Origin: a virus
IMG/VR virus record: IMGVR_UViG_3300047554_000247
Span: 1-21,944 of that record
DNA length: 21,944 nt
Strand: one strand, 5' to 3'
Shown: positions 2,224 through 18,323 of the stretch, one piece after another
Layout of the letters: every line of letters begins with the position of its first letter
Numbering within the stretch: the first letter of the stretch is position 1
Notes under the pieces: model-generated
Told to the model about the DNA's origin: nothing
What the model saw: the letters and a program-made list of their open reading frames with translations, nothing else
Database searches by the model: none
Position numbers and translations under genes: made by a program

Positions 2224-3139
2224 GGTTTATCTCCCCGAATGGATTGCTCTCGTCGAAGTTGATAACATCAACAGACTCATCCTTAAATTTATTGTTGTCG
2301 CCGAATGAAGATGGCTTATCAATATCAACTTCGATGGTAGAAGTTGCTGCAGCATTTACGCCAGCACCACCAACAAAAGATATTGCTGGAGCAGTTTGAT
2401 AACCAGAACCACCATTAGTTACATCTACACGAACAACTTTATTAGCTGAAACGCCAGAGCCTAATACTGCTGTTGCTGTTGCACCAAAACCAGATGAACT
2501 TGTAAACACGACCTGTGGTGCAGAAGTATATCCAGAGCCGTTATTGGTCATAGTGATACTCTTAACAGCACCGAAAGCAGAACGTGTTGCATTGGTATTA
2601 AATGTCTTAAGTGTTTCAAATGCGTCAACCTGAGGGATTCCAGTATCGATAGCTTCGGAAGCGTACTGGAACAATTCAACCTGTAACTTATATACGTATA
2701 GCTTACCTAGTTGATAGAATGGGTCTTGATGTTGAACGAACTTAATTTCGAACAAACCTTTAGACAGTGGGAAGTAGATTAAGTCACCTTCGTTTGGGCG
2801 ATTAGGTAGAGTGGTCGCACCGTATCGACCAACCATCTGATCCCAACGGCGACGAGCAACCACTAGCGTAGCAGACTGTTCAACCATTAAACCGAACTTC
2901 TGAATAAACGCTCCCTGCCCACCGAATGAATCTACGTTTTCGAAGTACATCTCGATAGGAAACGCAGACTTAAATTGGCTTAGACGATCCTCGCCAAGAA
3001 TCTCATCTTTAGAAACTAATGTTCTTGGGATGTACATAACCTCTTGACCATAGATACGCAATGATTCTATGATCAAGTCTTCGATTAGGTACTGCTCGTT
3101 TCGAGTGCCCTGTGTGAAATATACATTAGTTGTTGACAT
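2216..3139 (-). CDS. 14: Neck protein gp14, with a C-terminal GSGY-repeat insertion
   Basis: A 307-residue homologue of T4 gp14 (256 residues), which with gp13 forms the head-tail neck. The core is strongly conserved: MYIPRTLVSKDEILGEDRLS (35-54), IEMYFENVDSFGGQGAFIQK (62-81), VARRRWDQMVGRYG (94-107) and FYQLGKLYVYKLQVELFQY (141-159). After residue 188 comes a stretch absent from T4, with two about 43-residue repeats centred on NNGSGYTSAP (199-208) and NGGSGYQTAP (242-251). Similar GSGYTSAP beta repeats decorate virion proteins of many marine phages. The tail end (272-307) is acidic and Asn rich. The start is one base after the gp13 stop and has only a weak upstream GGGT, so translation is probably coupled. 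gp15 starts within the last codons. Confidence 0.94.
   Translation of the reverse strand: MSTTNVYFTQGTRNEQYLIEDLIIESLRIYGQEVMYIPRTLVSKDEILGEDRLSQFKSAFPIEMYFENVDSFGGQGAFIQKFGLMVEQSATLVVARRRWDQMVGRYGATTLPNRPNEGDLIYFPLSKGLFEIKFVQHQDPFYQLGKLYVYKLQVELFQYASEAIDTGIPQVDAFETLKTFNTNATRSAFGAVKSITMTNNGSGYTSAPQVVFTSSSGFGATATAVLGSGVSANKVVRVDVTNGGSGYQTAPAISFVGGAGVNAAATSTIEVDIDKPSSFGDNNKFKDESVDVINFDESNPFGEINRA
2330..2575 (-). repeat. Two GSGY-type beta repeats in gp14
   Basis: The region encodes gp14 residues about 189-270. Two units align: ITMTNNGSGYTSAPQVVFT and VDVTNGGSGYQTAPAISFV, about 43 residues apart. Each is followed by an Ala/Gly-rich stretch (GFGATATAVLGSG and GAGVNAAATSTI). T4 gp14 lacks this insertion. 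The role is unknown; surface decoration or stabilisation is plausible. Confidence 0.75.
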
Positions 3140-5301: not shown

Positions 5302-8178
5302 TTAGGCTTGGGCTTCTGACCAGAATAAGTTTACGTTCACGTTTGCAGTTGTATTTGAAAGGTTTCTAACAACAACCGCCAAAACGTCTGGACCATCTGG
5401 ATAATTAGAATAACCACCAATCGCTGAGTTTGTCAATTCTTTAAGGTTTGACAAGTCGATTTCAGCAAAACCAGATGGTTGCCCTAGTGTTGAAAAGTTT
5501 TGCTCGCCTGGAGTTGCTGCTGTAGAAGTGCTAGTAGAAACCTGTGCGAACGAAGGTTGAGAACCTAGTGGAACTGTGTTAACAGCTGACCACGTTAATG
5601 TTGATGCGTCAATATTACCTGGATTCAAAATACCGTACACCTGTACTGATTGGTCAGCCTGTACCTGTAATCGTTGTAGTAATAATTGAGAACGATTGAT
5701 AAGATCTCGATCACCGAAATTACCAGCAATAGAGTTTGAAACTGACGGAGCCAATCTTAAGAAGAATACTGTTTCTGACGAATTGGCGTTGACGCTATTT
5801 GCTGTAGATGCATAGTTAAAGTAGTAACCACGATCTGAGTCAAAGTTGCCGTCCATAATATAAGAAGAACCCCAGTGGTTAATAATAGGGGAGCACGTGC
5901 AAGTGATTAAAGTCACTGAGTTGTATCCATTTCCAACCGCATGGACTGCTGCAGCACCACCAGAGAATGTCTTAGTAGAACCACCAACGAACATTTGGAA
6001 AGACGCACCACGAGTTAAACCAGTTAACGTATTGCCTGCCTTACCAGTGTATGTTATATACTCACTGTCAATAAGAACTACACCACCTGTAGATGGGAAT
6101 CTAGACGCATCATAAAGATCCATTGTTGTTTGAGTATTGTTCATCGCAGAAGCTAAACGATCTCGAGCAGATTCATTAATCGCCTGATAACGAACTGCAG
6201 TGTTAGCAGTTCTCATATACGCTTCATCGTTTACGTTGTTCTGTTTCATACGGTGAACAAGAATCATATTACCGTCACCACCACGACACATAAAGTCGAT
6301 GAAACCAGCACCATACCAAGAGAACGAGATACCTAACATTTGCATCTTGTTTAGGTTAATATTGTAACCAGAAATACCTGTACCATCAATCTTATCAAAG
6401 TTAAATTGAGATTGAGGGACACGTTGGTCTATAACCTGAGCGATTTTGATACCAGAAGAACTATTGACTCCACGATATTCTGGGTTAATAGACATAGTGT
6501 TATCGTCAGTAATAGAACCGATACGGTATGTCATACCACGAATAACAATAGAATCACCAACCTTTAACTGCTGAGTGAAACGACATCCTGCACCAGTAAC
6601 TAACTGAGAACCAGAAGTAACAGACACGAAACCAGATAGTTGATAAGTTGCAGAACGCTTAACTACTGCCAATTCTTGTCCATCAAATTCCCAGAATAAT
6701 CCGTTTTGATCATCGAATGGACCGCAACGAGTGCAAGCACCAACCCAGTTTTTAACTGTAACACGTGGTAGGTTAGTGATAACCGCAGTTGTAGAACCTA
6801 GTGCTGTCGTTGCATTAACAGTGAAAGTAGATTCATTAACGATAGAAGCAACACCGTAGACGCCATTATATCCAGAAGTAACAACTCCTGAAATTTGAAT
6901 AGTGGCACCTGCTTGTAGACCATGGTCGATCTCTGTAGAAACGGTGATAACAGAACCTACTCCAGTACCAGCAGCAGAAATTTGGTCCAAGTTAATAACA
7001 GGGTTAAACAAAATACCAGAAGTCCAAAGAATACCTTTACCTGATTGGTAACGCATGTATTTCTTAGTCTGACGAGATACAGAAGCACCATGAGATGGTA
7101 AGAATGTACCGATGTTAACACCGCCATCGAATGGACGGTGTTGCACATAAGCGTCGGAACGTGTATAAGTCTTAGCTACAATACCTGCATTTGCTACAGC
7201 ACCACCCACTCGAGCGGTGAAAGTAAATGTAGTATTTGTTGGAACAGTTTCAACGAAGAAGTTACCACCCATTAAATCATGGTTTGTTCCAGTAGAAGTA
7301 ACAATATTAACTAGGGGACATCCTGCAACCAGACCATGTGGTGCAGAACAAGTAACTGTAATTTTAGATGGAGAGTTAGCGTCAGAAGTATAACCAGTAA
7401 TTGGAAGTTCTGCGCCAGCATAGAAACCACCACGACGAGCATAAGTTGATTGGTTGTAAACAGAAGTTCCATTTATACCAACGATACCTTTAGCGAAGTA
7501 AGTAAAGGTAGTAGAAGATGGGACAGTAGCTACAACGAACGCACCTTCAGCACGTGCAGCATTTGATACACCTGCTGCACCGAAGATAATAACTGGTTGC
7601 GCAACAGAAAGACCATGTGGCTGCGAGCAGGTAACAGTCATAATAGATGGGTTACCACCATCAGAAGTGATATTAGTCATGAACAAGTCAAGACCTGGCT
7701 TTTCGTAAATACCTGGAATACCACGAATGTCAGAATAGTTCTGCCACTTAGTAGGCTGTAGACCATATTCAAAGTCAGCGTCAATCAAAGCCTGTGGTTG
7801 AGCAACACGTTGGCGTTCAATAGCATCAACACCGAAAGCGTATGGACGAACAATGTTACCGATTTGTTTTGGTGCGTCAGTATAGATAGCGATTTTATCT
7901 GTACTCAACATCGAAGCTGTATCAGCTGCAAATGTTACAGTACTAGCGCCGACTTGCTCAGAGTACTGAGAAGAGCCACCCATAAAAGTAGTGTCGCTTG
8001 GATCGTATGTGATCGTACCATTTTTAGTTGGGTCACCAATCGCATAGATGTTTGTTTGTTGAGTCTTGTTTGCAATAATCAAAAGTTGAGTCAGATCAAC
8101 TTTACCAGGAAATTTTAGTGTACCTTGTCCTGGAGCATTTGGAGTGAATATGTATTTTTCAATTAACTGACGTGCCAT
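5302..8178 (-). CDS. Large virion structural protein with HGL beta-repeats
   Basis: A 958-residue protein. The N-terminus (ARQLIEKYIFTPNAPGQGTL, then KFPGKVDLTQLLIIANKT) is a signature I associate with a conserved virion protein of T4-like marine phages; its exact position is unknown to me. Three copies of an about 60-residue beta-module lie at about 168-230, 261-325 and 402-457. Each has the pattern T-V-T-C-x-x-PHGL-x-x-x ... F-x-V-x-T-V-P-x-x-T-T-F (third copy more divergent). The C-terminal part contains a conserved block around QMLGISFSWYGAGFIDFMCR and ends with a beta-rich domain (YPDGPDVLAVVVRNLS). The start is supported by Shine-Dalgarno AAGGATATACA directly before the ATG, overlapping the stop of the upstream gene. 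It is probably a baseplate- or tail-associated fibre component. No catalytic motif is visible. Confidence 0.75.
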   Translation of the reverse strand: MARQLIEKYIFTPNAPGQGTLKFPGKVDLTQLLIIANKTQQTNIYAIGDPTKNGTITYDPSDTTFMGGSSQYSEQVGASTVTFAADTASMLSTDKIAIYTDAPKQIGNIVRPYAFGVDAIERQRVAQPQALIDADFEYGLQPTKWQNYSDIRGIPGIYEKPGLDLFMTNITSDGGNPSIMTVTCSQPHGLSVAQPVIIFGAAGVSNAARAEGAFVVATVPSSTTFTYFAKGIVGINGTSVYNQSTYARRGGFYAGAELPITGYTSDANSPSKITVTCSAPHGLVAGCPLVNIVTSTGTNHDLMGGNFFVETVPTNTTFTFTARVGGAVANAGIVAKTYTRSDAYVQHRPFDGGVNIGTFLPSHGASVSRQTKKYMRYQSGKGILWTSGILFNPVINLDQISAAGTGVGSVITVSTEIDHGLQAGATIQISGVVTSGYNGVYGVASIVNESTFTVNATTALGSTTAVITNLPRVTVKNWVGACTRCGPFDDQNGLFWEFDGQELAVVKRSATYQLSGFVSVTSGSQLVTGAGCRFTQQLKVGDSIVIRGMTYRIGSITDDNTMSINPEYRGVNSSSGIKIAQVIDQRVPQSQFNFDKIDGTGISGYNINLNKMQMLGISFSWYGAGFIDFMCRGGDGNMILVHRMKQNNVNDEAYMRTANTAVRYQAINESARDRLASAMNNTQTTMDLYDASRFPSTGGVVLIDSEYITYTGKAGNTLTGLTRGASFQMFVGGSTKTFSGGAAAVHAVGNGYNSVTLITCTCSPIINHWGSSYIMDGNFDSDRGYYFNYASTANSVNANSSETVFFLRLAPSVSNSIAGNFGDRDLINRSQLLLQRLQVQADQSVQVYGILNPGNIDASTLTWSAVNTVPLGSQPSFAQVSTSTSTAATPGEQNFSTLGQPSGFAEIDLSNLKELTNSAIGGYSNYPDGPDVLAVVVRNLSNTTANVNVNLFWSEAQA
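6808..7677 (-). repeat. Three HGL-type protein repeats
   Basis: The region encodes about residues 168-457 of the 958-residue protein. Units 1 and 2 share MTVTCSQPHGL / ITVTCSAPHGL and VVATVPSSTTFTYFAKG / VETVPTNTTFTFTARV. Unit 3 has ITVSTEIDHGLQAG and STFTVNATT. A related VRVWHTNHGMYAGSSVTIDG unit occurs in the large tail protein at about 19.7-19.8 kb. These look like small duplicated beta-modules used as surface decoration. Confidence 0.7.
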
Positions 8179-8187
8179 TGTATATCC

Positions 8188-9573
8188 TTAGAAGCCGAAA
8201 ATAATAGAATAACCAAGATAGTCTGATTTGACTGACTGGTCGATGTTGTTCAACGAAATAATACCTGTGAAACTTAGAACACCCAAGTCATAAATGTTAT
8301 AAGCGATTTCACTAACTAGACCCAAGTTTTCTGAAACAGTTACGTTACTATCATATACATATCCAAGATCTGATTGGGATGTAGCAAAAACAGCAGACGC
8401 AACAACTGCGTTCGAATCAGCGTTGATCCAAGCAGAACCTGTGAATGTTAAAACTTGTTGCGGTTGCGCACTAGTAATTAAAACGTCTGATAGATTAGAT
8501 AGAGCAGGAGAAGGTGGGTTGGACCAGCTAAGACCAGTTGGTCCACGAGCAAGGTATTGCCCAGTATTTCCAGTAACACCATTGATAGAAAGTAGCGTAG
8601 TAGAAGTTAATGTAATAGTTCCACTAAGACTTGGTGATGTTAGAGATTTATTTGTTAATGTATCGGTAGTAGCACGACCAACTAAAGTATCTGTTCCAGT
8701 AGGTAGTGTTAATGTACCACTATTAGAAATAGTAGAAATTACTGGAGCAGTAAGAGTTTTATTTGTAAGAGTGCTTGTGCTGGTAAGAGTAGGAACAGAG
8801 ACGCCAGCAACACTTAGCGTAGAACCATAATTTATTGATCCAGCATTAGAAGTATAATTTTTAGTAAATGGATACGATGTAAAGTTCGCTGGTAGAGAAG
8901 TAATCTCACTTGGGTTTACTGTATTAAATACTTGAGCTACATAGTTACCGTAATAACGACTGTTACAGTCTACATCTACAGTAATAGTTCCATATATTGT
9001 AGATAGAATATTTAACGCTAGGATAAATTGCGCAGATCCAGTTCCAGTCTCATTAACCCATATAACAGGAGCTACTAACTGAGAACTCGTTCCACTTAGT
9101 TCTTCGTCATACGTACATGTCCAAGAAAGATCAGGTAATGTATTGGATCTTAATGTAGCCTGGAAATTAATAATCTGAACTGCGCTTCCAGATTGTACTA
9201 AAATTCTACCAACAATTGTATAGTTATCAGAGCTTCCCTGTGGTGTTACAGTAAGAAATGGTTGGAACTCTCCAGTGTCAAGGTAACTTGATGATTGTCC
9301 AGTAGCTCCACCATTATATACTTGGGAAAACTTTTGAATGTTAGAGTTTTTATAACGAATGTTATCAACAATAGTAGTGCCGTTGAACTGGTTAGTTCCA
9401 GTCCAAGTATTGTTGCTCCCTAATGAAGCGAATGATGATATAGCGTTGGAAGAGTTTTTGAAATACAGTTTACCATCAGCATAGTTTAATGCTAATTCAC
9501 CGTAGTCTAAGTCAGTAGTTAACGGAACTTTTGCCGCAACGGATGACTTTTTGAGTACAATCTTATTACTCAT
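8188..9573 (-). CDS. Tail-fibre-like virion protein
   Basis: A 461-residue protein. The N-terminus (KIVLKKSSVAAKVPLTTDLD, then YGELALNYADGKLYFKNSSN) is an adaptor-type tropism-determinant head like those of neighbouring fibre genes. The central region contains the shaft repeats TSTSTLTNKTLTAPVISTI, TDTLTNKSLTSPSLSGTITL and SINGVTGNTGQYLARGPTGL. The TNKTLT-type repeat is common in phage fibres. The C-terminal 70 residues form a distinct non-repetitive end domain finishing in DYLGYSIIFGF. Shine-Dalgarno AGGAAG lies 4 bases before the ATG. The previous fibre gene ends 60 bases upstream, and a hairpin fills the gap. Receptor binding is a reasonable but unproven role. Confidence 0.78.
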   Translation of the reverse strand: MSNKIVLKKSSVAAKVPLTTDLDYGELALNYADGKLYFKNSSNAISSFASLGSNNTWTGTNQFNGTTIVDNIRYKNSNIQKFSQVYNGGATGQSSSYLDTGEFQPFLTVTPQGSSDNYTIVGRILVQSGSAVQIINFQATLRSNTLPDLSWTCTYDEELSGTSSQLVAPVIWVNETGTGSAQFILALNILSTIYGTITVDVDCNSRYYGNYVAQVFNTVNPSEITSLPANFTSYPFTKNYTSNAGSINYGSTLSVAGVSVPTLTSTSTLTNKTLTAPVISTISNSGTLTLPTGTDTLVGRATTDTLTNKSLTSPSLSGTITLTSTTLLSINGVTGNTGQYLARGPTGLSWSNPPSPALSNLSDVLITSAQPQQVLTFTGSAWINADSNAVVASAVFATSQSDLGYVYDSNVTVSENLGLVSEIAYNIYDLGVLSFTGIISLNNIDQSVKSDYLGYSIIFGF

Positions 9574-9640: not shown

Positions 9641-11946
9641 TATGTTCCGCCATCGATGTTGAAACCATCGATAGTAGAAGTGCCAGCACCAGCGCCAGTC
9701 AAGTTAGCAGACAATGTTACGTTACCAGTAACGCCAAGAGTAGAACTCAATGTTGCTGCTCCAGAAACTGCTAAAGTAGAAGTTAAAGTCGCCGCACCAT
9801 TAGCTGCCAAAGTTGTGAACGCACCAGTAGAACGAGTTGTAGCACCGATTGGTGTGTTGTTAACAGTACCACCAGAGATAGTTAACGCATCATTAATGTA
9901 TGCATCTGCGATAACAGAACCGTTCCAAGTACCAGTAGTAACAGTACCTAGAGTAGTGATAGAAGTCTGACCGACATAAGTTGACGCAATATCAATACTA
10001 TCAGCGTTAACAGTGATGCGGTTAGCTGTACCAACAACATCAACAACACCAGAAGTGTATGTTAAACCAGCACCAGCGACGCTTGACTTTAATTGTAGGT
10101 TGTCTGAAACAATTTCAATACCACCAGAACCAGCGACATTAACTTCTAAAGTGTAGCCGTTCTTAGAAAGACCGTTACCTGCGATCAATGTTCCAGATGT
10201 AGAGAACAGAGTGAAAGATAGCGCAGTAGTACCTAGAGTGATAGGGTCGTTAGTAGTTAGAACAAAACCAGTGTCGCTGTTAACTGCACCCTCTTCAACG
10301 AAGCAGAACATACCAGAAGTGACTTCACCACCTGGATTGTTGTCTGCGTCAGTAGCACGAGTCCAAGATCCAGAAGCAACGACGTAGATACCGTTCTGAG
10401 AACCAGTTGTCTGATCTTTAACAAGAACACGATCACCAACAGAAAGCGCCACACCGTCAATAGTTTGTGTATTGCTTAGTGTGATGTTACCAGTAGTTGC
10501 GACACGAACAGAACCCTTAACGTCTAGACCAGAACGAGCAGCGTCAACGTAGTACTTTGTAGCTGCATCAGAGTCAGCAGTCGGCTCAGCAAGATTGGTA
10601 ATCTTGTGTGCATTCATATCGACGTTAGCGCCGAATGTTGCAACTCCAGTCACACCTAATGTTCCACCAATAGTAGTGTTACCAGTTACAGCTAATGTAG
10701 AACTTAGAGTAGCTGCACCAGTGACACCCAAAGTACCAGCTAATGTTGTATTACCAGTAGACGCTTGAACATTAAACTTATTGGTGTTAACTGATAGATC
10801 GTTAGTAACAGCAAGAGTGCTTGATAAAGTTGTAGCACCAGTAACTGCTAGAGTGCCACCTAGAGTTGAGTTACCTGTTACACCAAGAGTACCAGCAACA
10901 GAAGTATTACCTGATGTAGCAGAAACAGTGAACTTGTTAGTATTAACAGCGAAGTCGCCAGCAACACCAAGAGTAGAACTTAGAGTAACAACACCAGTAA
11001 CACCAAGAGTGCCACCGATAGTAGCGTTACCAGTTACACCAAGAGATGATAGACCAGCAAGACCAGTGGTTGTAGAACCTAGAGTTAGTGTAGAAGAGCC
11101 AAGAGTGATAGTCTTAGCAGAAACAGCACCAGCAGTTACTGTGAAGTTAGCAGTGTCGAAAGAAGCAACACCCTTGTTAGTAGTAGTTGCGTCTTCAGCA
11201 GAAATAGTTAAAGTGTTAGCAGTAATAGCAGTGTCAATACCCTCACCGCCAACGATGGCTAGAGTTTCTGATAGTAGAGAAATACCATCAGATCCAGTGT
11301 CACCAGTTAGGTTTAGAGTAGTAGCAACTGATACAGAACCAGCAGCAGACAAACGACCTTTACTATCAACAGTAAATGTAGGAATTGCTGTGGCAGAACC
11401 ATAAGAACCAGCAGTTACGCCAGTGGTCTTAAGTGCTAGTGAAGTAGTGCCAGCTGTGTCATCATATGTAGCGTCAATTTCAGATGAATCAACGATACCA
11501 CCACCAGCTACGTCTTGAATATACTCTTGTAACGATGTACTAACATCTGTATAAATGTTAGTGATAATAGTTTTACCAGTACCATTTGGTGTGATGTTAA
11601 TATCACCATTGGTATTAGTAGAAGATAATGTATTACCTGTTAATTGTAAGTTACCAACTAACCACTTATCGATCGTACCAGTAGAAGAAAGTACTGGGAT
11701 AGACTTAGCGTTTGTTGTGAGTGTACCACCAGATCCACCTGCATCAACTAAGCCAGTGTAGTATTTACCACCGATGATTACGTGGTTAACCGCATTACCT
11801 GCGGTTTCTGTGCCCATACCAATGTATAAACGATCACCACCATTTGATCCATTGTCTGCTAATGCAGAATACGCTAACTCACCTGCACCAAGCGTAGCTG
11901 GGTTGCCAGATGTGCTAGAGCGTTTAATTCTAATAATTGAAGCCAT
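9637..11946 (-). CDS. Long repetitive tail-fibre protein
   Basis: A 769-residue protein. The N-terminal head (SIIRIKRSSTSGNPATLGAG, then ELAYSALADNGSNGGDRLYIG) is an adaptor-type fold with a GELAY motif. Residues 299-440 are built of LGVTG/LAVTG shaft repeats of 10-11 residues, arranged in larger units of about 51 residues that include VNTNKFTVSATSGNT and VNTNKFNVQASTGNT. Next comes a conserved globular insertion: MNAHKITNLAEPTADSDAAT, then KYYVDAARSGLDVKGSVRVAT and ADNNPGGEVTSGMFCFVEEG (about 444-570). More shaft repeats follow. The protein ends in IDGFNIDGGTY, an ending I have seen in fibres of marine T4-like phages. Shine-Dalgarno GGAGA precedes the ATG by 8 bases. The repetitive DNA is a likely site of recombination between fibre genes. 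Confidence 0.85.
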   Translation of the reverse strand: MASIIRIKRSSTSGNPATLGAGELAYSALADNGSNGGDRLYIGMGTETAGNAVNHVIIGGKYYTGLVDAGGSGGTLTTNAKSIPVLSSTGTIDKWLVGNLQLTGNTLSSTNTNGDINITPNGTGKTIITNIYTDVSTSLQEYIQDVAGGGIVDSSEIDATYDDTAGTTSLALKTTGVTAGSYGSATAIPTFTVDSKGRLSAAGSVSVATTLNLTGDTGSDGISLLSETLAIVGGEGIDTAITANTLTISAEDATTTNKGVASFDTANFTVTAGAVSAKTITLGSSTLTLGSTTTGLAGLSSLGVTGNATIGGTLGVTGVVTLSSTLGVAGDFAVNTNKFTVSATSGNTSVAGTLGVTGNSTLGGTLAVTGATTLSSTLAVTNDLSVNTNKFNVQASTGNTTLAGTLGVTGAATLSSTLAVTGNTTIGGTLGVTGVATFGANVDMNAHKITNLAEPTADSDAATKYYVDAARSGLDVKGSVRVATTGNITLSNTQTIDGVALSVGDRVLVKDQTTGSQNGIYVVASGSWTRATDADNNPGGEVTSGMFCFVEEGAVNSDTGFVLTTNDPITLGTTALSFTLFSTSGTLIAGNGLSKNGYTLEVNVAGSGGIEIVSDNLQLKSSVAGAGLTYTSGVVDVVGTANRITVNADSIDIASTYVGQTSITTLGTVTTGTWNGSVIADAYINDALTISGGTVNNTPIGATTRSTGAFTTLAANGAATLTSTLAVSGAATLSSTLGVTGNVTLSANLTGAGAGTSTIDGFNIDGGTY
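10627..11052 (-). repeat. LGVTG shaft-repeat block
   Basis: The region encodes residues about 299-440 of the long fibre. Short units (GTLGVTG, STLAVTG, ATLSSTL, TTIGGTL) alternate, and two longer copies of about 51 residues each carry a VNTNKF segment. The DNA repeats are imperfect, with many synonymous differences, which fits an old duplication rather than a recent one. Confidence 0.8.
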
Positions 11947-12605: not shown

Positions 12606-13631
12606 TTACAAGAAAATGTTTCTGTAGTCGTCTAAAAGGAATATCCAGTCAGGTTCATGGACTGAAAATGTCGATATTTTCTTAGTTTTGTTCTTAGCAT
12701 AATGTTCAAACCCTAAGCTAGAAAGAAACTCACGCATTTGCCATCGATGTGTAGTAGAATCGCCTGGAGTGCGAGTGAATGGTTCTTTGGTAGTAATAGC
12801 CCATCTCTGGAAGTCTTCAGAGTCGAAAAACCCATGAATTAGATCGAACTTGTCTTTTTCAAGTAAAATTTTATGTTCATATATTGCAGTATACCAATCT
12901 AAGTTAAAGATGCAATACCATCTTAGATCAGCTACTGTTTCAATTTTTCTAGGAGAAGCGTCAATCATGGGTTGAAAAAATTCTAGAATTTCTTCTGACA
13001 CATTCTTCTCGTATGGCTCGTAAATAGTTTCTGGAGTCCCAAGTGTATGATGGAACATCGCATTTCCACCATTAGCGAACATATCGTCTGTTGGACCGAA
13101 TAGCTGGTTACCGCACATACCACTAACATAGATCTCATCTACATTTTTATAGTTTAAATCGTTTCTTTTAGCTACACCTATATCAAATTCAAATTTATTT
13201 TTTATATCTCTATCGAATAAGTCGCCAGATTCGACTATAGAATTATAAGTGCCAAGAACCTTAACTTGAGATTTATCAGTAGCACACTCATGTAGGATGT
13301 ATAAAATGTATGTACTGTCTATCCCGCCAGACCACATAACATTAATCTTTTTGCCAGAAGAAAGTAGCTGCTTAGCACGTTCTACAGAAACCTCATGAAA
13401 GGACTTATTAAATCCTTCTGTAGAAGGCATTGGATGTTTATCTGGAGATATCTTTAGAAAGTGCGGTAGTTTACCAGTTCTATCGTAGATTGCATTATAT
13501 GAATTTAACCCAAATTTTTCATACAGCTCAAACGTGCTACGATGTCCTGTTATGAATGGTGTGGTTTCTAATAATGTTGGGTTTTCTCTAAGAATCTTAG
13601 AGACTAGTTGTGGGTGATAATAAAGTATCAT
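12606..13631 (-). CDS. Asparagine-synthetase-like ATP-pyrophosphatase lacking a glutaminase domain
   Basis: A 341-residue protein. The PP-loop VMWSGGIDSTYILYIL (98-113) is the ATP-pyrophosphatase signature of asparagine synthetases and relatives. VSGMCGNQLFGP (169-180) aligns with the SGEGSDEIFGGY motif of AsnB, but Asn-Gln replaces Asp-Glu. The N-terminal Ntn glutaminase domain of AsnB is absent: the protein starts MILYYHP, with no Cys2 nucleophile, and about 90 uncharacterised residues precede the PP-loop. It may use free ammonia or another amine, or activate a carboxylate for a different ligation. A GAGGA Shine-Dalgarno sequence lies 4 bases before the ATG, just after a terminator. It follows the radical SAM/TRAP cassette. 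By eye it is more AT-rich than the structural genes, suggesting separate acquisition. The substrate is unknown. Confidence 0.8.
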   Translation of the reverse strand: MILYYHPQLVSKILRENPTLLETTPFITGHRSTFELYEKFGLNSYNAIYDRTGKLPHFLKISPDKHPMPSTEGFNKSFHEVSVERAKQLLSSGKKINVMWSGGIDSTYILYILHECATDKSQVKVLGTYNSIVESGDLFDRDIKNKFEFDIGVAKRNDLNYKNVDEIYVSGMCGNQLFGPTDDMFANGGNAMFHHTLGTPETIYEPYEKNVSEEILEFFQPMIDASPRKIETVADLRWYCIFNLDWYTAIYEHKILLEKDKFDLIHGFFDSEDFQRWAITTKEPFTRTPGDSTTHRWQMREFLSSLGFEHYAKNKTKKISTFSVHEPDWIFLLDDYRNIFL

Positions 13632-13687: not shown

Positions 13688-14632
13688 TTAGTGTAGTTGA
13701 ATCTTCTCAACTAGACCTGGAGTGAAGTAGTCAGCAAATTTAGCGTAAACTGGAGCAGTAACTTCTTTGAAACGTGCTTCTTGTTCAGCAGTCATCTTAA
13801 CAACTTCAACACCCTCAGCTTCGCATTGAGCCAAGATGTTTGGAATGTCTGCAACAGATTCACGACGCTCAGCACGAGCAGCGTTAAATGCAGCAGTAGA
13901 CAAGATCTCTTGAGTTTCAGCATCGAACTGCTTGAAGAAGTCTTGGTTTACGATGATAGAAGTCAAGAACAAGCTATGTGCTGTATCGTTAACAACTTTG
14001 AAAGACTTATGCTGGTCCAGTGGGAATACACGAACGTAAGTAGACTCACCAGCTTCGATCAAACCTGCATCAGCAGCAGCGTTCATTTCTTCCAAAGCGA
14101 TGTGTTCTTTAGGTTCAGCGCCAAGCAACTTGAACGTCTCAACAGCAACTGGAGAACGGCTAGTACGAACTGTACGACCTTGCCATGCTTCTACAGTGTC
14201 AGCCTTAAAGTTAGCTGGAACGACACGGTAACCACCAGAGTAAGTGAAAGACATAGCATGAGTGTTGGAATTCTTAGCAACACCAGCCAATAGATCCATA
14301 CCAACAGAACCTTCTAAAACTGCATCTGCGTGAGCGTGGTCACGGAACAGGAATGGAAGATCTAGGGCGTGTAGGTCTTTGTTATAGTCAGCTAACCAAG
14401 TAGTGTAGATATGGCTCATTTCGATGGTGCCATCGTCAACTAACTTCATTAGTGCATCTTTGGTAATCTTTCGACCACCATTGTATTTTGCAGAGTAGTC
14501 AGACAAAGAAAGGACTTCGATGTCGAAAGCACCGTTAGTTTTCTCGTTGACTTCTTTTGCGAATCGTTCTGCTACTTTCAAAAACAAACCGATTGGCTCG
14601 TGGGCGATGACCCACTTTACATGTTTAGTCAT
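13688..14632 (-). CDS. TRAP-type (DctP family) solute-binding protein without signal peptide
   Basis: A 314-residue protein that matches the mature part of TRAP substrate-binding proteins over its length: WVIAHEPIGLFLKVAERFAK (7-26), EVNEKTNGAFDIEVLS (27-42), HALDLPFLFRDHAHADAVL (88-106), the WQGRTVRTSRSP block with the substrate-carboxylate arginine position (R156), VETFKLLGAEP (164-174) and NDTAHSLFLTSIIVN (215-229). These proteins normally deliver organic acids to a membrane transporter from the periplasm. Here no signal peptide precedes the domain and no DctQ/M membrane genes are present, so the product should stay in the cell or be built into the virion. The ATG overlaps the upstream stop (ATGA), with Shine-Dalgarno AGAGGA 9 bases before it. 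By eye, base composition resembles the structural genes more than its two AT-rich neighbours. Confidence 0.88.
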   Translation of the reverse strand: MTKHVKWVIAHEPIGLFLKVAERFAKEVNEKTNGAFDIEVLSLSDYSAKYNGGRKITKDALMKLVDDGTIEMSHIYTTWLADYNKDLHALDLPFLFRDHAHADAVLEGSVGMDLLAGVAKNSNTHAMSFTYSGGYRVVPANFKADTVEAWQGRTVRTSRSPVAVETFKLLGAEPKEHIALEEMNAAADAGLIEAGESTYVRVFPLDQHKSFKVVNDTAHSLFLTSIIVNQDFFKQFDAETQEILSTAAFNAARAERRESVADIPNILAQCEAEGVEVVKMTAEQEARFKEVTAPVYAKFADYFTPGLVEKIQLH

Positions 14633-14922
14633 TTCTTAGTTTCCTCTAAAATGTTGGTATCGAAAATCCAACTTTCCTTTTGGTTATTTAGGTCTATCAC
14701 TCTTCTCATGATAGGTATTTTATTATTTATAACGAACTCTATTGTAGACTCGTTAGGGAATCCATCAATATATTTAGTTGGAATAATAGTTCCTCTAGCC
14801 CCATAAACAGGAGTTAGAGAGTTATAGTGAAAATAATCACCAATAGTGAATAAATCTAAGTTCTCACCGAACCTAGGATACTGATTTATCTCTACGAAAG
14901 TTTCGTCGATGAAAGGTGTCAT
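14629..14922 (-). CDS. Small protein of unknown function in the radical SAM cassette
   Basis: A 97-residue acidic protein that I do not recognise. It is rich in Ile, Asn, Phe and Tyr (DLFTIGDYFHYNSLTPVYGA, TIEFVINNKIPIMRRVIDL) and has a predicted beta/alpha mix, no cysteine, no signal peptide and no membrane segment. Its start overlaps the stop of the radical SAM gene (ATGA) and its own stop overlaps the next start (ATGA), so the three products are probably made together. No Shine-Dalgarno sequence is visible, in line with coupled translation. It could be a partner or recognition protein for the radical SAM enzyme. Without Cys it is not an obvious thioether substrate. A late-promoter match lies within it. 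Confidence 0.75.
   Translation of the reverse strand: MTPFIDETFVEINQYPRFGENLDLFTIGDYFHYNSLTPVYGARGTIIPTKYIDGFPNESTIEFVINNKIPIMRRVIDLNNQKESWIFDTNILEETKK
14724..14731 (-). promoter_or_regulatory. Possible internal late promoter TATAAATA
   Basis: A perfect TATAAATA on the coding strand inside the 97-residue gene (over codons for Val-Ile-Asn-Asn), 91 bases upstream of the TRAP-like gene. It could raise late expression of that gene alone. The AT-rich coding context makes a chance match possible. Confidence 0.4.
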
Positions 14923-16301
14923 AGAGATTTAATAGGTATAATTTTCTTGGTAGTTTTTGGAATACCGTAAACCATCCCGAAGATGTCTTTTCTATCTTCT
15001 GGCATAGCCTTATTTTCGTCTTCGATATAAATCGGAATCATCCCTGTCAACATCTCGATAGAGCAGCAAAATACGACGATATTATCGCTGTATGAATTCG
15101 TACAAGTAGTTTCCCACAGTGGACCAGTTAGGAAGAAACAAGCACCTTTACATATATGTAATACAGGACAGTTGGGGCATTCTTCACGATCGCTCCAATG
15201 AGTTCCTGTAGCGACTTCCACAGAAGATAAGCTAGAAACATGGCCAATATGATGTGAAATACCAGAAGGATTGGTAGAAACTGTTGACACGTTCTGACAA
15301 GTTAGAACATTTCCGTTAAGGTCTATCGCCATATTATCTGAAAGATCCATACCACACTTTTGTGTGATATCTTCAGATCTTTTACCATTAGAAATAGAAT
15401 TAATAAAGTTATCTACCTTAGTTTTAATAGTGCTATAACGAGTTACATATCCAGCACGAATTTCATCGAAAGTGAACTTTCTAAAGTTCATTTCCTGTTC
15501 TGCATTTTCCAAGGAAGAAGTGACGCCACCTTCGTCATATGCGTCGATGAATGTACCTTCACCTATTAGTAAATACTGTAAGTAATGTTCACCCAATTCT
15601 GTTGCAATTAGCTTTTCAAAAAACTGTTGAACACTGGCTCTACTGATATTTTTAGCAGTTACCATTGAGTTGAAACTCAAACGATTTTTTGTCGCTAATA
15701 CTTTATAAGCGTACAGAATTCCTTCTTTACTCTCTTTATCATCTAATGGGTCTGGACCACGAACAAACTGTCCTGGACCATCATGTGAAATACCGATACT
15801 AAATCCCAGATTATCTAACCAATCAACCTTTTCTTTATCTAAAAGACTTCCGTTAGTTATAATAGAAAAATTAGAGTTTGGGTATTTCTGTCTTATCTGT
15901 TCTGCTAGAGGTTTTAAGGTTTTCCAATAAACCAAGGGCTCACCACCCCAAAATTCAAAGGAACGATTTAATCCTAGCTTATCATCACCACCATCAAACC
16001 AAGTTTCCATATTTGACACAAAGGGAGCTATATCATCTGGATTGGTTGAATCTGCATGCGGTACAAATCTCTGGTTACAATACTCGCATTCGTAATTGCA
16101 AGATAACCCGAGTTGTATTTTTACAGTTTTTGGATTTTTACCAGTCTGAATCTTGACCTGTTTTTTCTCAGTTAGATCGAGGTTGGTTTGGATGACTGGG
16201 GAACCATCTTCCCAGTTTAGAGTGCTGTACTTAGAATCATAAACAACTTTCTTTCTTTCCTGAGTCACTGGATGAGAAAGAGTAACATTAAATTTTGCCA
16301 T
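14919..16301 (-). CDS. Radical SAM/SPASM peptide-modifying enzyme
   Basis: A 460-residue protein. CNYECEYC (C68, C72, C75) is the CxxxCxxC site for the SAM-binding [4Fe-4S] cluster. FWGGEP (117-122), SIITNGSLL (146-154) and GFSIGISHDGPG (166-177) are further radical SAM barrel motifs. The C-terminal SPASM domain has C316, C335 (in GNVLTC), then C375, C378, C384 and C388 (CPNCPVLHICKGAC) and C400, enough for auxiliary clusters. SPASM enzymes usually modify ribosomally made peptides or proteins, for example by thioether bonds in sactipeptides and ranthipeptides, or by formylglycine in sulfatases. An N-terminal extension of about 58 residues precedes the barrel. The ATG has AAGG 8 bases upstream. 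The gene starts a cassette with two ATGA overlaps and follows fibre-region genes, including one ending in (Asn-Cys)4, its best candidate substrate here. Confidence 0.93.
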   Translation of the reverse strand: MAKFNVTLSHPVTQERKKVVYDSKYSTLNWEDGSPVIQTNLDLTEKKQVKIQTGKNPKTVKIQLGLSCNYECEYCNQRFVPHADSTNPDDIAPFVSNMETWFDGGDDKLGLNRSFEFWGGEPLVYWKTLKPLAEQIRQKYPNSNFSIITNGSLLDKEKVDWLDNLGFSIGISHDGPGQFVRGPDPLDDKESKEGILYAYKVLATKNRLSFNSMVTAKNISRASVQQFFEKLIATELGEHYLQYLLIGEGTFIDAYDEGGVTSSLENAEQEMNFRKFTFDEIRAGYVTRYSTIKTKVDNFINSISNGKRSEDITQKCGMDLSDNMAIDLNGNVLTCQNVSTVSTNPSGISHHIGHVSSLSSVEVATGTHWSDREECPNCPVLHICKGACFFLTGPLWETTCTNSYSDNIVVFCCSIEMLTGMIPIYIEDENKAMPEDRKDIFGMVYGIPKTTKKIIPIKSL

Positions 16302-16341: not shown

Positions 16342-16346
16342 TTATT
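16339..16346 (-). promoter_or_regulatory. Candidate late promoter AATAAATA overlapping a stop codon
   Basis: A match to NATAAATA. The stop codon TAA of the upstream Ig-like gene lies inside it, and its last three bases belong to the following hairpin stem. Transcripts starting 5-7 bases downstream would lose most of the left hairpin arm. The radical SAM ATG is 37 bases downstream. Confidence 0.6.
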
Positions 16347-17136
16347 CGACTGGAATGATAATCTGATTTAGAGAAGGGACTCTTCTATAACCTGCTCTTA
16401 CACGAACAGCTTCTCCTGCTACTAAGTCTGTAGAATATGCAGTAAGAGATCCTGTTCCATTAGTCAATGTAACACGTTGTTTATTAGTTAAACCATAAAC
16501 TGCATCTATAAAAACTTCTTTGACAGAAGGATCTGCGCTAACAGTAATAGTCACAGAAGAATTTGGAGCAATTGTCTGTGAAGAACTAGTTAATGTGATA
16601 GTAGGTAAATGTTCTTTGAAACCTGCCACAGTAGTTGCAGACTCTGCTGCTGTTTTAAGAGTTCCAGCGTATTGATAATTAGCGTTCTGTGGAGTTCTTA
16701 AAACTACTGTCCAAGTTGAAAAATCACCATCTTGATCGTCTACTAAAATATAGAAAGGATATGAATTGTATGGAGCATTAGAAGATGGCTTAGAACGGCT
16801 TGATAATGTATCAGCAAAGATATCAATAAATTCTGAAGGTGGTATCACATACGCTTCGGTAGGAATACCTTCAGAATCTGATACAACTTGCACAGATGGG
16901 TTCACACCATATACAACAAAGTCTGCACCAGTACCAAATTGTTTTAGATTAGCAGCTAATACTTTATTCCATAGAAGTACGGAGTCTGTATTATCAGTAT
17001 TGTGCTGAACTACTTTTATTTCAAAATAGTCGTCGTTACCATCAAGATGAAATGTAACACCAGAACTTTCTTTTTGTGGTATAGTTGAAGTTGTGTAATC
17101 TGGATTACCAACTATGTGTTTTTTAATCTTAATCAT
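16342..17136 (-). CDS. Ig-like virion or fibre-accessory protein
   Basis: A 264-residue protein, starting at ATG 17136 (MIKIKKHIVGNPDY). A longer frame opens at TTG 17154 inside the preceding gene. I prefer the ATG because AGGA lies 6 bases upstream, the same layout as in neighbouring genes. The N-terminal 165 residues are unrecognised (KVVQHNTDNTDSVLLWNKVL, YVIPPSEFIDIFADTLSSRS, FYILVDDQDGDFSTWTVVLR). Residues about 176-264 look like an Ig-type beta-sandwich (LTSSSQTIAPNSSVTITVSA, then PSVKEVFIDAVYG, RVTLTNGTGSLTA and GEAVRVRAGYRRVP). It lies between the (Asn-Cys)4 fibre and the radical SAM gene, with an 11-base gap to the former. It could be a fibre-tip partner, but no function is proven. 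Confidence 0.75.
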   Translation of the reverse strand: MIKIKKHIVGNPDYTTSTIPQKESSGVTFHLDGNDDYFEIKVVQHNTDNTDSVLLWNKVLAANLKQFGTGADFVVYGVNPSVQVVSDSEGIPTEAYVIPPSEFIDIFADTLSSRSKPSSNAPYNSYPFYILVDDQDGDFSTWTVVLRTPQNANYQYAGTLKTAAESATTVAGFKEHLPTITLTSSSQTIAPNSSVTITVSADPSVKEVFIDAVYGLTNKQRVTLTNGTGSLTAYSTDLVAGEAVRVRAGYRRVPSLNQIIIPVE

Positions 17137-17147
17137 TGGATATCCTA

Positions 17148-17174
17148 TTAGCAATTACAGTTGCAGTTACAGTT
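17148..17174 (-). other. C-terminal (Asn-Cys)4 motif
   Basis: Codons AAC TGT, AAC TGC, AAC TGT, AAT TGC, then TAA (residues 384-391). Four strictly alternating Asn-Cys pairs end the fibre. Variation at both third positions shows that the pattern is not a simple tandem DNA expansion. It could be a crosslinking, metal-binding or radical-SAM substrate tail; nothing in the sequence decides between these. Confidence 0.85.
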
Positions 17175-18323
17175 GTGTGCTCTTAGCAACATGTTGGTTC
17201 CTTGACGAATTGTATCATAAACACCAGCAGTATAGAAAATAGTTGGGTAATGGTGATAGTTAGCGTTACCAAAACAGTTACCAATAACACGACCGCCACC
17301 ACCGTCAACGAAGAAACCGTAGTTACCCAAGTTGTTAGAGAATTGTGACAAGTGACCTGGCCAACCACCGCCAGCAGAAGATGCGTAACCTGCAGAACCA
17401 GCAAAACCAGCGTATGAGACGTTAGTGACGGAAACCGCACCAGTAGCACCCTGAACAGATGTAACAGGAACAGAAACGGTAACAGCACCTGTGTTACCTT
17501 GAACAGATGTAACAGCAGCGTTAATAGTAGGGTTACCAGCAACACCGCTACCGTTATCAACAGTAATACCAGCACCAGCAACAATTGATCTAGTAGCAGA
17601 AGCACCAGAACCAGTTCTAATGTAGATACCAGTACCTGCCTGACCAGACAATGCTGTTAATTCAGCAGAGTATGCTTGGACATCTGTACCAATACGAACA
17701 CCTAGCGTAGCACGAGCAGTAGCTGCATCAGCGTCCGCCATATGGCCACGCATGTAAGAACTAGATGTAAAAGTAGCTGCTGTACCAGATCCAGTAAAAT
17801 ATGGAACTAAGTTAGCTCCAGAAACGATACCAGCTAATGCTGCTAATTCTGCGTCATATGCTTGGACGTCTGTACCAATCGCTAGACCTAAGGCAGTACG
17901 AGCGCCAGCTGCAGTAGTAGAACCTGTACCACCAGAGCCGATAGCTAAAGCAGTAGAAAGGGTGATAGAACCGCTAGTGATTGCTGCAACACCAGAGAAA
18001 GTACCAGAGAAGGTAGAAGCTGTGATGGTGTTAGCTGCAAAGTTACCACTAGAGTCACGAGTAACAACAGAGCTCTTGTCAGTAGCTGCTGGAAGTGCAG
18101 AAGAGTTAGCTAAACCACGAACTAAGTCAGCATCTACACCAGATCCAGTACCATCAACTGTGATAAGTTTGGCTAGGACGTCTGCTGCAGTATAAGAAGC
18201 TGCAGTTTGACCAGTTTGGATTGCGTTACTTAAGTTCGTAAAGTTAGCATCGACTTCGGCGTTTGTAAGAGGGCTACCTTTGGTAGATCTTAGCGTAATT
18301 GATGGTGCGGAAATGCTTGCCAT
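17148..18323 (-). CDS. Tail-fibre-like protein ending in (Asn-Cys)4
   Basis: A 391-residue protein. The N-terminus ([20 protein letters not shown], then TNLSNAIQ) is a fibre head seen in many phage tail fibres. The shaft contains duplicated blocks ([20 protein letters not shown] and [40 protein letters not shown]). The last about 90 residues form a Gly/His/Tyr-rich tip ([39 protein letters not shown]) ending in [10 protein letters not shown]. Apart from one further N-C pair (VIGNCF) the protein has no Cys that I see. The repeat is encoded with mixed synonymous codons (AAC/AAT, TGT/TGC), so the protein sequence appears to be kept, not a simple DNA repeat. Shine-Dalgarno AAGGA precedes the ATG by 7 bases. 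A C-terminal run of exposed Cys suggests crosslinking, metal binding or enzymatic modification. Confidence 0.88.

Follow-up and report, generated by a model that had tools for sequence, protein, structure and literature searches.

A C-terminal Asn-Cys run of phage tail fibres, probably the substrate tag of a phage-encoded radical-SAM/SPASM maturase

In the His-Xaa-Ser, CXXX-repeat and Cys-every-fifth systems, a radical-SAM/SPASM enzyme is encoded beside a protein that carries a short tandem motif, and to our knowledge none of these systems is known from phage fibres. The maturase PapB, of the ranthipeptide type, forms its bond between Cys and Asp within a CX3D motif. The tips with which phages bind receptors are regarded as folded protein and nothing else. 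Radical-SAM genes of marine viruses have been described in other settings: pelagimyophages carry radical-SAM cassettes within the host-recognition cluster (PMC7029224), while 261 'ahbD' calls from Baltic Sea viruses (PMC9301287) and 12 radical-SAM genes of one T4-like marine genome (PMC5332604) were listed as auxiliary metabolic genes; the available excerpts of these three papers mention no link to fibre ends. In open-licence PMC full text, we found no paper linking radical-SAM enzymes to fibre ends and none describing the system reported here. Close relatives of its enzyme occur in 2 of 50,697 phage genomes (three records), those of Achromobacter phages JWF and 2-1, which tblastn with two divergent enzymes found again with nothing further; their published annotation gives the enzyme as an anaerobic sulfatase-maturating one and draws no connection with the fibre.

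The window, that is, the whole stretch of DNA analysed, is a 21,944-base record of a virus of bacteria in which tail and packaging genes (terminase, sheath stabiliser, head closure) are T4-like. Its features are collected in Table 1. The fibre-like protein P0001 matched tail-fibre PHROGs at 4e-14 and weaker, its body matched only cyanophage and other fibres across 16-23% of its length, and direct look-up of the 51-residue tip against phage records gave no match. The gene ends on the minus strand with AAC TGT AAC TGC AAC TGT AAT TGC TAA, which bears out the (Asn-Cys)4 C-terminus of the original prediction with its strict alternation and its variation at both third positions (AAC/AAT, TGT/TGC). 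All five Cys residues of P0001 are preceded by Asn; among the 24 Cys of eight other window proteins, none is. At the composition of the rest of P0001 (5.2% N and 0.26% C), the expected number of such runs per protein is about 1e-13. The statement that free Cys is rare in the other fibres of the window held for part of them and failed for the 958-aa and 1111-aa virion proteins, which have nine Cys each.

Table 1. Positions of the Asn-Cys fibre, the enzyme and adjoining features in the window
Feature	Position	Strand	Basis or remark
Tail-fibre-like protein P0001, 391 aa, presumed substrate	17148..18323	-	ORF; PHROGs; Cys context
C-terminal (Asn-Cys)4 run and stop codon	17148..17174	-	Sequence; Cys at every second residue kept in homologous ends
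Fifth Asn-Cys pair, GNCF, tip domain	17274..17279	-	Sequence; family trait of Asn-Cys pairs outside the run
P0003, 264 aa, between fibre and enzyme	16342..17136	-	N-terminal domain of unknown fold and C-terminal Ig-like domain
Radical-SAM/SPASM enzyme P0002, 460 aa, presumed maturase	14919..16301	-	Families, fold, linkage
CX3CX2C radical-SAM cluster motif, residues 68-75	16077..16100	-	Invariant in 36/36 aligned sequences
SPASM region, Cys 316, 335, 375, 378, 384, 388, 400	15102..15356	-	Seven Cys invariant in 36/36
97-aa protein, doubtful member of the system, overlapping the enzyme gene at its end	14629..14922	-	Relatives in 6/126 loci

Loci (L numbers below) were gathered by a scan of virus contigs with P0002, which gave 49, and by a profile from alignment A1 against bacterial genomes, from which the best 80 of 112 relatives were taken; all loci, including those chosen by DNA motif (see below), were reduced to 126 with enzymes less than 90% identical. 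Across 107 distinct ends, the run consists of 3 to 10 xC units with Cys at every second residue. The position before Cys within runs (n = 549) holds N in 360, A in 83 and D in 55 cases, one of the three thus standing in 498, and the Cys is more constant than the residue before it. Repeat number varies among homologous ends with the Cys spacing kept; strict Asn-Cys alternation is not the family rule. Of the 434 Cys that lie beyond the runs, 324 have Asn before them, although Asn makes up 7.7% of the residues there, so that the unit is Asn-Cys itself, beyond the terminal repeat alone; the earlier assignment of the GNCF pair to the tip agrees with this trait.

The same kind of tail is found on bodies that differ. 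By the 150 aa before the run, the proteins fall into ten tip families that BLAST does not join at 1e-4, one of 82 members that includes the window, one of 12, and eight small ones. In 14 of 113 Asn-Cys proteins, a Hint domain follows the run directly; in these ends the last run Cys reads CFPAGT..., as in JWF (Hom_end_hint 3e-12), and is the residue at which the domain starts (L001 and L002, plus loci such as L031, L032, L082, L196 and L238). Self-cleavage by the Hint domain would free the run.

The codons allow maintenance of the run to be judged. In the comparison with near relatives L004 and L010, the differences within the eight motif codons are all synonymous (4, with 0 nonsynonymous), against 4-5 of each kind in the 18 preceding codons; compared with L003, the motif shows 3 synonymous and 1 nonsynonymous, and the preceding codons 5 and 7. 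Among 86 runs with at least three N and three C codons, both codons vary in 43 and neither in 11. Tandem Repeats Finder detected a weak period-12 array in the window gene (2.1 copies, 92% match), and an origin by duplication is therefore conceivable in this one gene, its maintenance being a separate question. As the cause of maintenance, DNA slippage is rejected on account of the 43 runs with both codons varied and the mostly synonymous motif differences. Selection at the protein level, as first proposed from the window's codons, is upheld by the predominance of synonymous changes against all three relatives and by the Cys spacing, which is kept in the 107 ends while the number of units varies.

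The enzyme P0002 is encoded by the second gene downstream of the fibre on the same strand. It scored 34.9 bits against the radical-SAM core model PF04055 (cut-off 29.5), 31 bits against the SPASM model TIGR04085 (cut-off 27) and 1e-61 against PHROG 1802 ('radical SAM domain-containing protein'), and stayed below the curated cut-offs of many peptide-maturase families. Its ten cluster Cys, three radical-SAM and seven SPASM, are invariant in all 36 aligned enzymes. The structure model (pLDDT 92.6) best matched the thioether-forming CteB (5wgg, Z 23.5, rmsd 3.7, 337 residues), followed by ChlB (9gm3, Z 21.2), anSME (4k39, Z 20.1) and TigE (Z 18.7), with the epimerase EpeE weaker at Z 13; Foldseek ranked anSME first. 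In anSME, we take Asp277 to be the catalytic base, Cys276 the SPASM Cys before it, and Cys261 an extra cluster ligand, while CteB presumably has an open auxiliary-cluster site. The residue after Cys335 of P0002 is Gln in 35 of 36 enzymes, where the aligned anSME has Asp, and the 36 aligned enzymes have no column for an eighth SPASM Cys. The lack of both anSME traits argues against formylglycine and, together with the three-Cys first auxiliary cluster, favours a reaction of the thioether type. No RiPP recognition element (RRE) domain appeared among the matches of the enzyme and P0003 to general family models and solved structures. Plasmids gave no match to the enzyme.

The linkage of run and enzyme was examined in both directions. 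In the forward direction, loci chosen by enzyme, with at least 3 kb of upstream DNA and an enzyme score of at least 300, were searched for an Asn-Cys protein upstream on the same strand; outside this count stood the 34 of 126 loci chosen by motif, 7 enzyme-chosen loci with less than 3 kb upstream and 3 enzyme-chosen loci scoring below 300, which have the protein in 3/3. The protein was present in 25 of 27 non-redundant virus loci, in 39 of 52 bacterial-genome loci (from the best 80 of 112 relatives), and also in both isolated phages and the window. At less than 60% enzyme identity, the virus and genome loci gave 26/33 (genome side again from the best 80 of 112), and the same motif rule applied to opposite-strand ORFs gave 0/3365.

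Of the two virus misses, L034 lies on a contig that starts inside the repeat, and in L050 the tail is degenerate (NCNCDRNCGC) and the enzyme gene is split into three overlapping pieces; these features of L050, at 5680-6621 (+) and 7800-9356 (+), may reflect joint decay of tail and enzyme. The 13 genome misses comprise L200, L239, L183 and ten others. In L200 the Asn-Cys block lies 18 aa from the end. Over residues 1-300 the fibre of L183 shares 91% identity with its counterpart in L189; its tail, however, is absent and the region after the fibre is altered, which points to a deletion or an assembly error. No Asn-Cys protein or peptide was found in L207, L224, L228, L236, L237, L241, L243, L244, L245 and L246, and the enzyme scores of these ten are all below 430.

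In the reverse direction, a search for NCNCNCxC as a DNA pattern, made without regard to the enzyme, yielded at least 119 stretches; positives were those in which an ORF of 60 aa or more holds the motif in its reading frame, either no more than 12 aa from the C-terminus or immediately followed by a Hint domain. Among the matches listed, a same-strand enzyme accompanied 54 of 69 such proteins, that is, 31/31 with at least 4 kb of downstream DNA and 23/38 with less, compared with 2 of the 50 remaining motif stretches (Fisher p 2e-17, near-duplicates included in the counts). The two exceptions among the 50 are apparently members overlooked by the rule: in L090 the contig ends just at this place, and the tip of L080 is rich in NC. 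Therefore, the Asn-Cys run and the enzyme are tightly linked in both directions.

Other genes of the neighbourhood are less constant. A P0003-like protein lies on the same strand in 82 of the 106 non-redundant loci with an Asn-Cys protein, and the order fibre, P0003, enzyme is kept in 72. In the P0003 model (pLDDT 86), the Ig-like domain matched intimin 1f00 (Z 11.1 over 84 residues); a role as precursor-recognition protein found no support, the whole model having given the Ig-like C-terminal domain and otherwise unnamed viral proteins. Three protein clusters resemble 2-oxoglutarate oxygenases, a name given on weak Pfam matches (one of the four proteins above its cut-off) and on FlmC at 1.4e-12. 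Their members are present in 62 of the 126 loci, and among the 106 that have an Asn-Cys protein in 56; the window has no recognised oxygenase gene. The 97-aa protein gave no match in family searches.

Further genes were seen in passing. A DctP-type TRAP solute-binding protein at 13688-14632 (-) (PF03480, 4.7e-43; relatives in 6/126 non-redundant loci) lies in the phage tail region without an obvious signal peptide; it may belong to the virion or serve attachment instead of forming part of a transporter. A PP-loop protein at 12606-13631 (-) shows weak Asn-synthase/QueC-like matches and has relatives in 5/126 loci. In L018, L030, L034, L042 and L229, a fatty-acid-desaturase-like gene lies near the enzyme, the L018 copy matching the DesA family at 2.6e-9.

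Some loci carry Asn-Cys proteins of unusual form. L239, with a Bacteriovorax-like neighbourhood in a record titled Proteobacteria, encodes at 9735-9923 (+), 0.4 kb past the end of the enzyme relative, a 62-aa ACACAC peptide ending SAGACACACGGPCY that looks like a small peptide precursor; no peptide of this type was seen in L237, L241, L245 or L246. In L207, as read from the translations, the enzyme lies beside transporter genes. A classical RiPP origin was considered on account of this peptide and these transporters and was set aside, such cases being too few. L066 has two Asn-Cys-tailed proteins, at 2383-2754 (-) and 6038-6700 (-), beside two radical-SAM genes, and one of the two also has a long CQxCQ repeat. 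L074, L081 and L160 encode short proteins (less than 90 aa) with a CNCNCNC run at the end, their enzymes being distant from the main family; two or more radical-SAM genes are present in both L074 and L160. A KNCNCNCHC near the start, followed by further Cys pairs, marks small proteins of L059-L062, L067, L078, L093, L109, L140, L152, L159, L164 and L167; the enzyme was never found in their DNA examined, and they form a different family, perhaps a metal-binding one.

According to the above-described analysis, we read the Asn-Cys run as a substrate tag, on which a RiPP-like system encoded by the phage acts to mature the fibre tips; to this reading we give a probability of about three in four. 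Since tag and enzyme are nearly always together, the fibre tips are probably enzymatically modified, and the fibre of the window is very likely the substrate of its enzyme. Of the metal site, disulfide knot and enzymatic crosslink originally put forward for the clustered Cys, the third is favoured, given that nearly every such protein has the gene of a radical-SAM/SPASM enzyme next to its own. A presumed ribosomal substrate with a recurrent motif is encoded near the enzyme, as in the broad class of radical-SAM/SPASM peptide maturases, by both linkage and motif counts; where a classical RiPP has a leader or follower that is removed, the fibre body precedes the run and, as far as seen, stays. 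Points against the reading are the ten of 52 genome loci in which the enzyme was seen and an Asn-Cys protein or peptide was not, the lack of an RRE domain among the general matches of the enzyme and P0003, and the lack of a recognised oxygenase gene in the window. The basis throughout is genomic association and modelling, from which we are fairly sure of the link between run and enzyme and much less so of the product.

In the proposed mechanism, the precursor would be the fibre gene product, and the enzyme would act on Asn-Cys, and also Ala-Cys and Asp-Cys, units of the C-terminus and tip domain. The most likely chemistry would join the Cys sulfur to a carbon of a nearby Asn, Ala or Asp in a thioether of the sactipeptide or ranthipeptide type, although as the actual product a thioether is tentative, at slightly less than even odds. 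Such bonds would make a compact tip, resistant to proteases and oxidation-proof, of what is otherwise a floppy, Cys-rich end at the point of contact between fibre and host; a role of the modified tip in host attachment is somewhat more likely than not. In about half of the loci the oxygenase-like gene product would probably add a further modification, and in some fibres the Hint domain after the run may be cut off, freeing it. Taken whole, the picture of a dedicated radical-SAM maturase, joined by oxygenases in roughly half the loci, that puts thioether and perhaps also hydroxy-Asn features on the Asn-Cys dipeptides of a receptor-facing and sometimes Hint-freed fibre tip seems to us evenly poised between right and wrong. 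The run could also be bound by the enzyme without modification, or modified by the oxygenases alone.

Other tasks can be imagined for the enzyme. It may epimerise or otherwise alter the Asn, Ala or Asp and leave the Cys free or disulfide-paired, which would give an alternating D/L end with an unusual helix. The restriction of the position before Cys mainly to N, A and D fits such a role, as do the structural matches to TigE, which we take to be an epimerase, and less closely to EpeE; but CteB, ChlB and anSME are structurally nearer, and the Cys, above the residue before it, is what the run keeps most constant, which makes epimerisation unlikely.

A metal-binding tip, in which a trimer would assemble at least 12 Cys and the enzyme would have another task or help to build the metal site, is quite improbable. 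Dense CxC spacing suits metal binding, and the spacing of the run counts for this reading; the small NCNCNCHC proteins without an enzyme from the same scan (e.g., L059-L062) may themselves be metal binders. It fails to explain, however, the 31/31 linkage to the enzyme among the matches listed, and it leaves the Asn before isolated Cys without a reason.

Formation of formylglycine from Cys by an anSME-like enzyme, giving an aldehyde-lined tip that would bond to host amines, has a similarly small chance. The best NCBIfam match of P0002 is anSME (1.7e-17), anSME structures match its model at Z ~20, and the JWF gene is so annotated. Against this stand the score of 63.6 bits where the curated cut-off is 349, the Gln after Cys335 and the missing extra SPASM Cys, and a run that lacks CxPxR, the sulfatase-type modification motif.

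Finally, that enzyme and Asn-Cys fibres merely co-travel in an exchangeable host-recognition cassette, as the pelagimyophage paper on radical-SAM cassettes in such a cluster might suggest (PMC7029224), is very improbable, since the tail is common to ten unjoined tip families with differing bodies, the motif predicts the enzyme in 31/31 cases among the matches listed, and co-travel leaves unexplained why the end of the fibre, rather than its body, goes with the enzyme.

Maturation of the Asn-Cys tip by a dedicated enzyme would mean that recognition of the host can depend on residues that the genome does not spell and that structure prediction is unable to see. It also offers a concrete candidate function for viral radical-SAM genes so far listed as auxiliary metabolic, a set of which would, if the reading is true, be re-classed as virion-maturation genes. 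RiPP-type chemistry would then be part of the tailed-phage virion, and the system would be the first known ribosomal-peptide modification system that builds a host-recognition tip of a virus.

Compared with the known systems, the CteB/SCIFF maturase of the ranthi-/sactipeptide type (5wgg, 5why) provides the nearest solved fold, with radical-SAM and seven-Cys SPASM domains and a Cys-rich peptide substrate; but P0002 is 16% identical to it and scored 32.8 bits against TIGR03974 (cut-off 425), and CteB acts on a short peptide, whereas in the window the presumed substrate forms the end of a virion protein of 391 aa. PapB (NF047865) is the second-best NCBIfam match (1.1e-15), at 57.7 bits for a cut-off of 340, and the run has CX1C spacing and no CX3D. 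The tandem-motif systems have HXS, CXXX or a Cys at every fifth residue where the fibres have (N/A/D)C, and their enzyme models were far below cut-off for P0002 or not among the matches listed. The best NCBIfam match, anSME (TIGR03942, 1.7e-17), shares the fold class and differs in its catalytic Asp and eighth SPASM Cys, both missing here, with P0002 at 63.6 bits for a cut-off of 349.45. In Achromobacter phages JWF and 2-1 the run stands directly before a C-terminal Hint domain, unlike in the window, but a fibre with an Asn-Cys run, a protein of about 240 aa and the enzyme follow one another in the same order as here.
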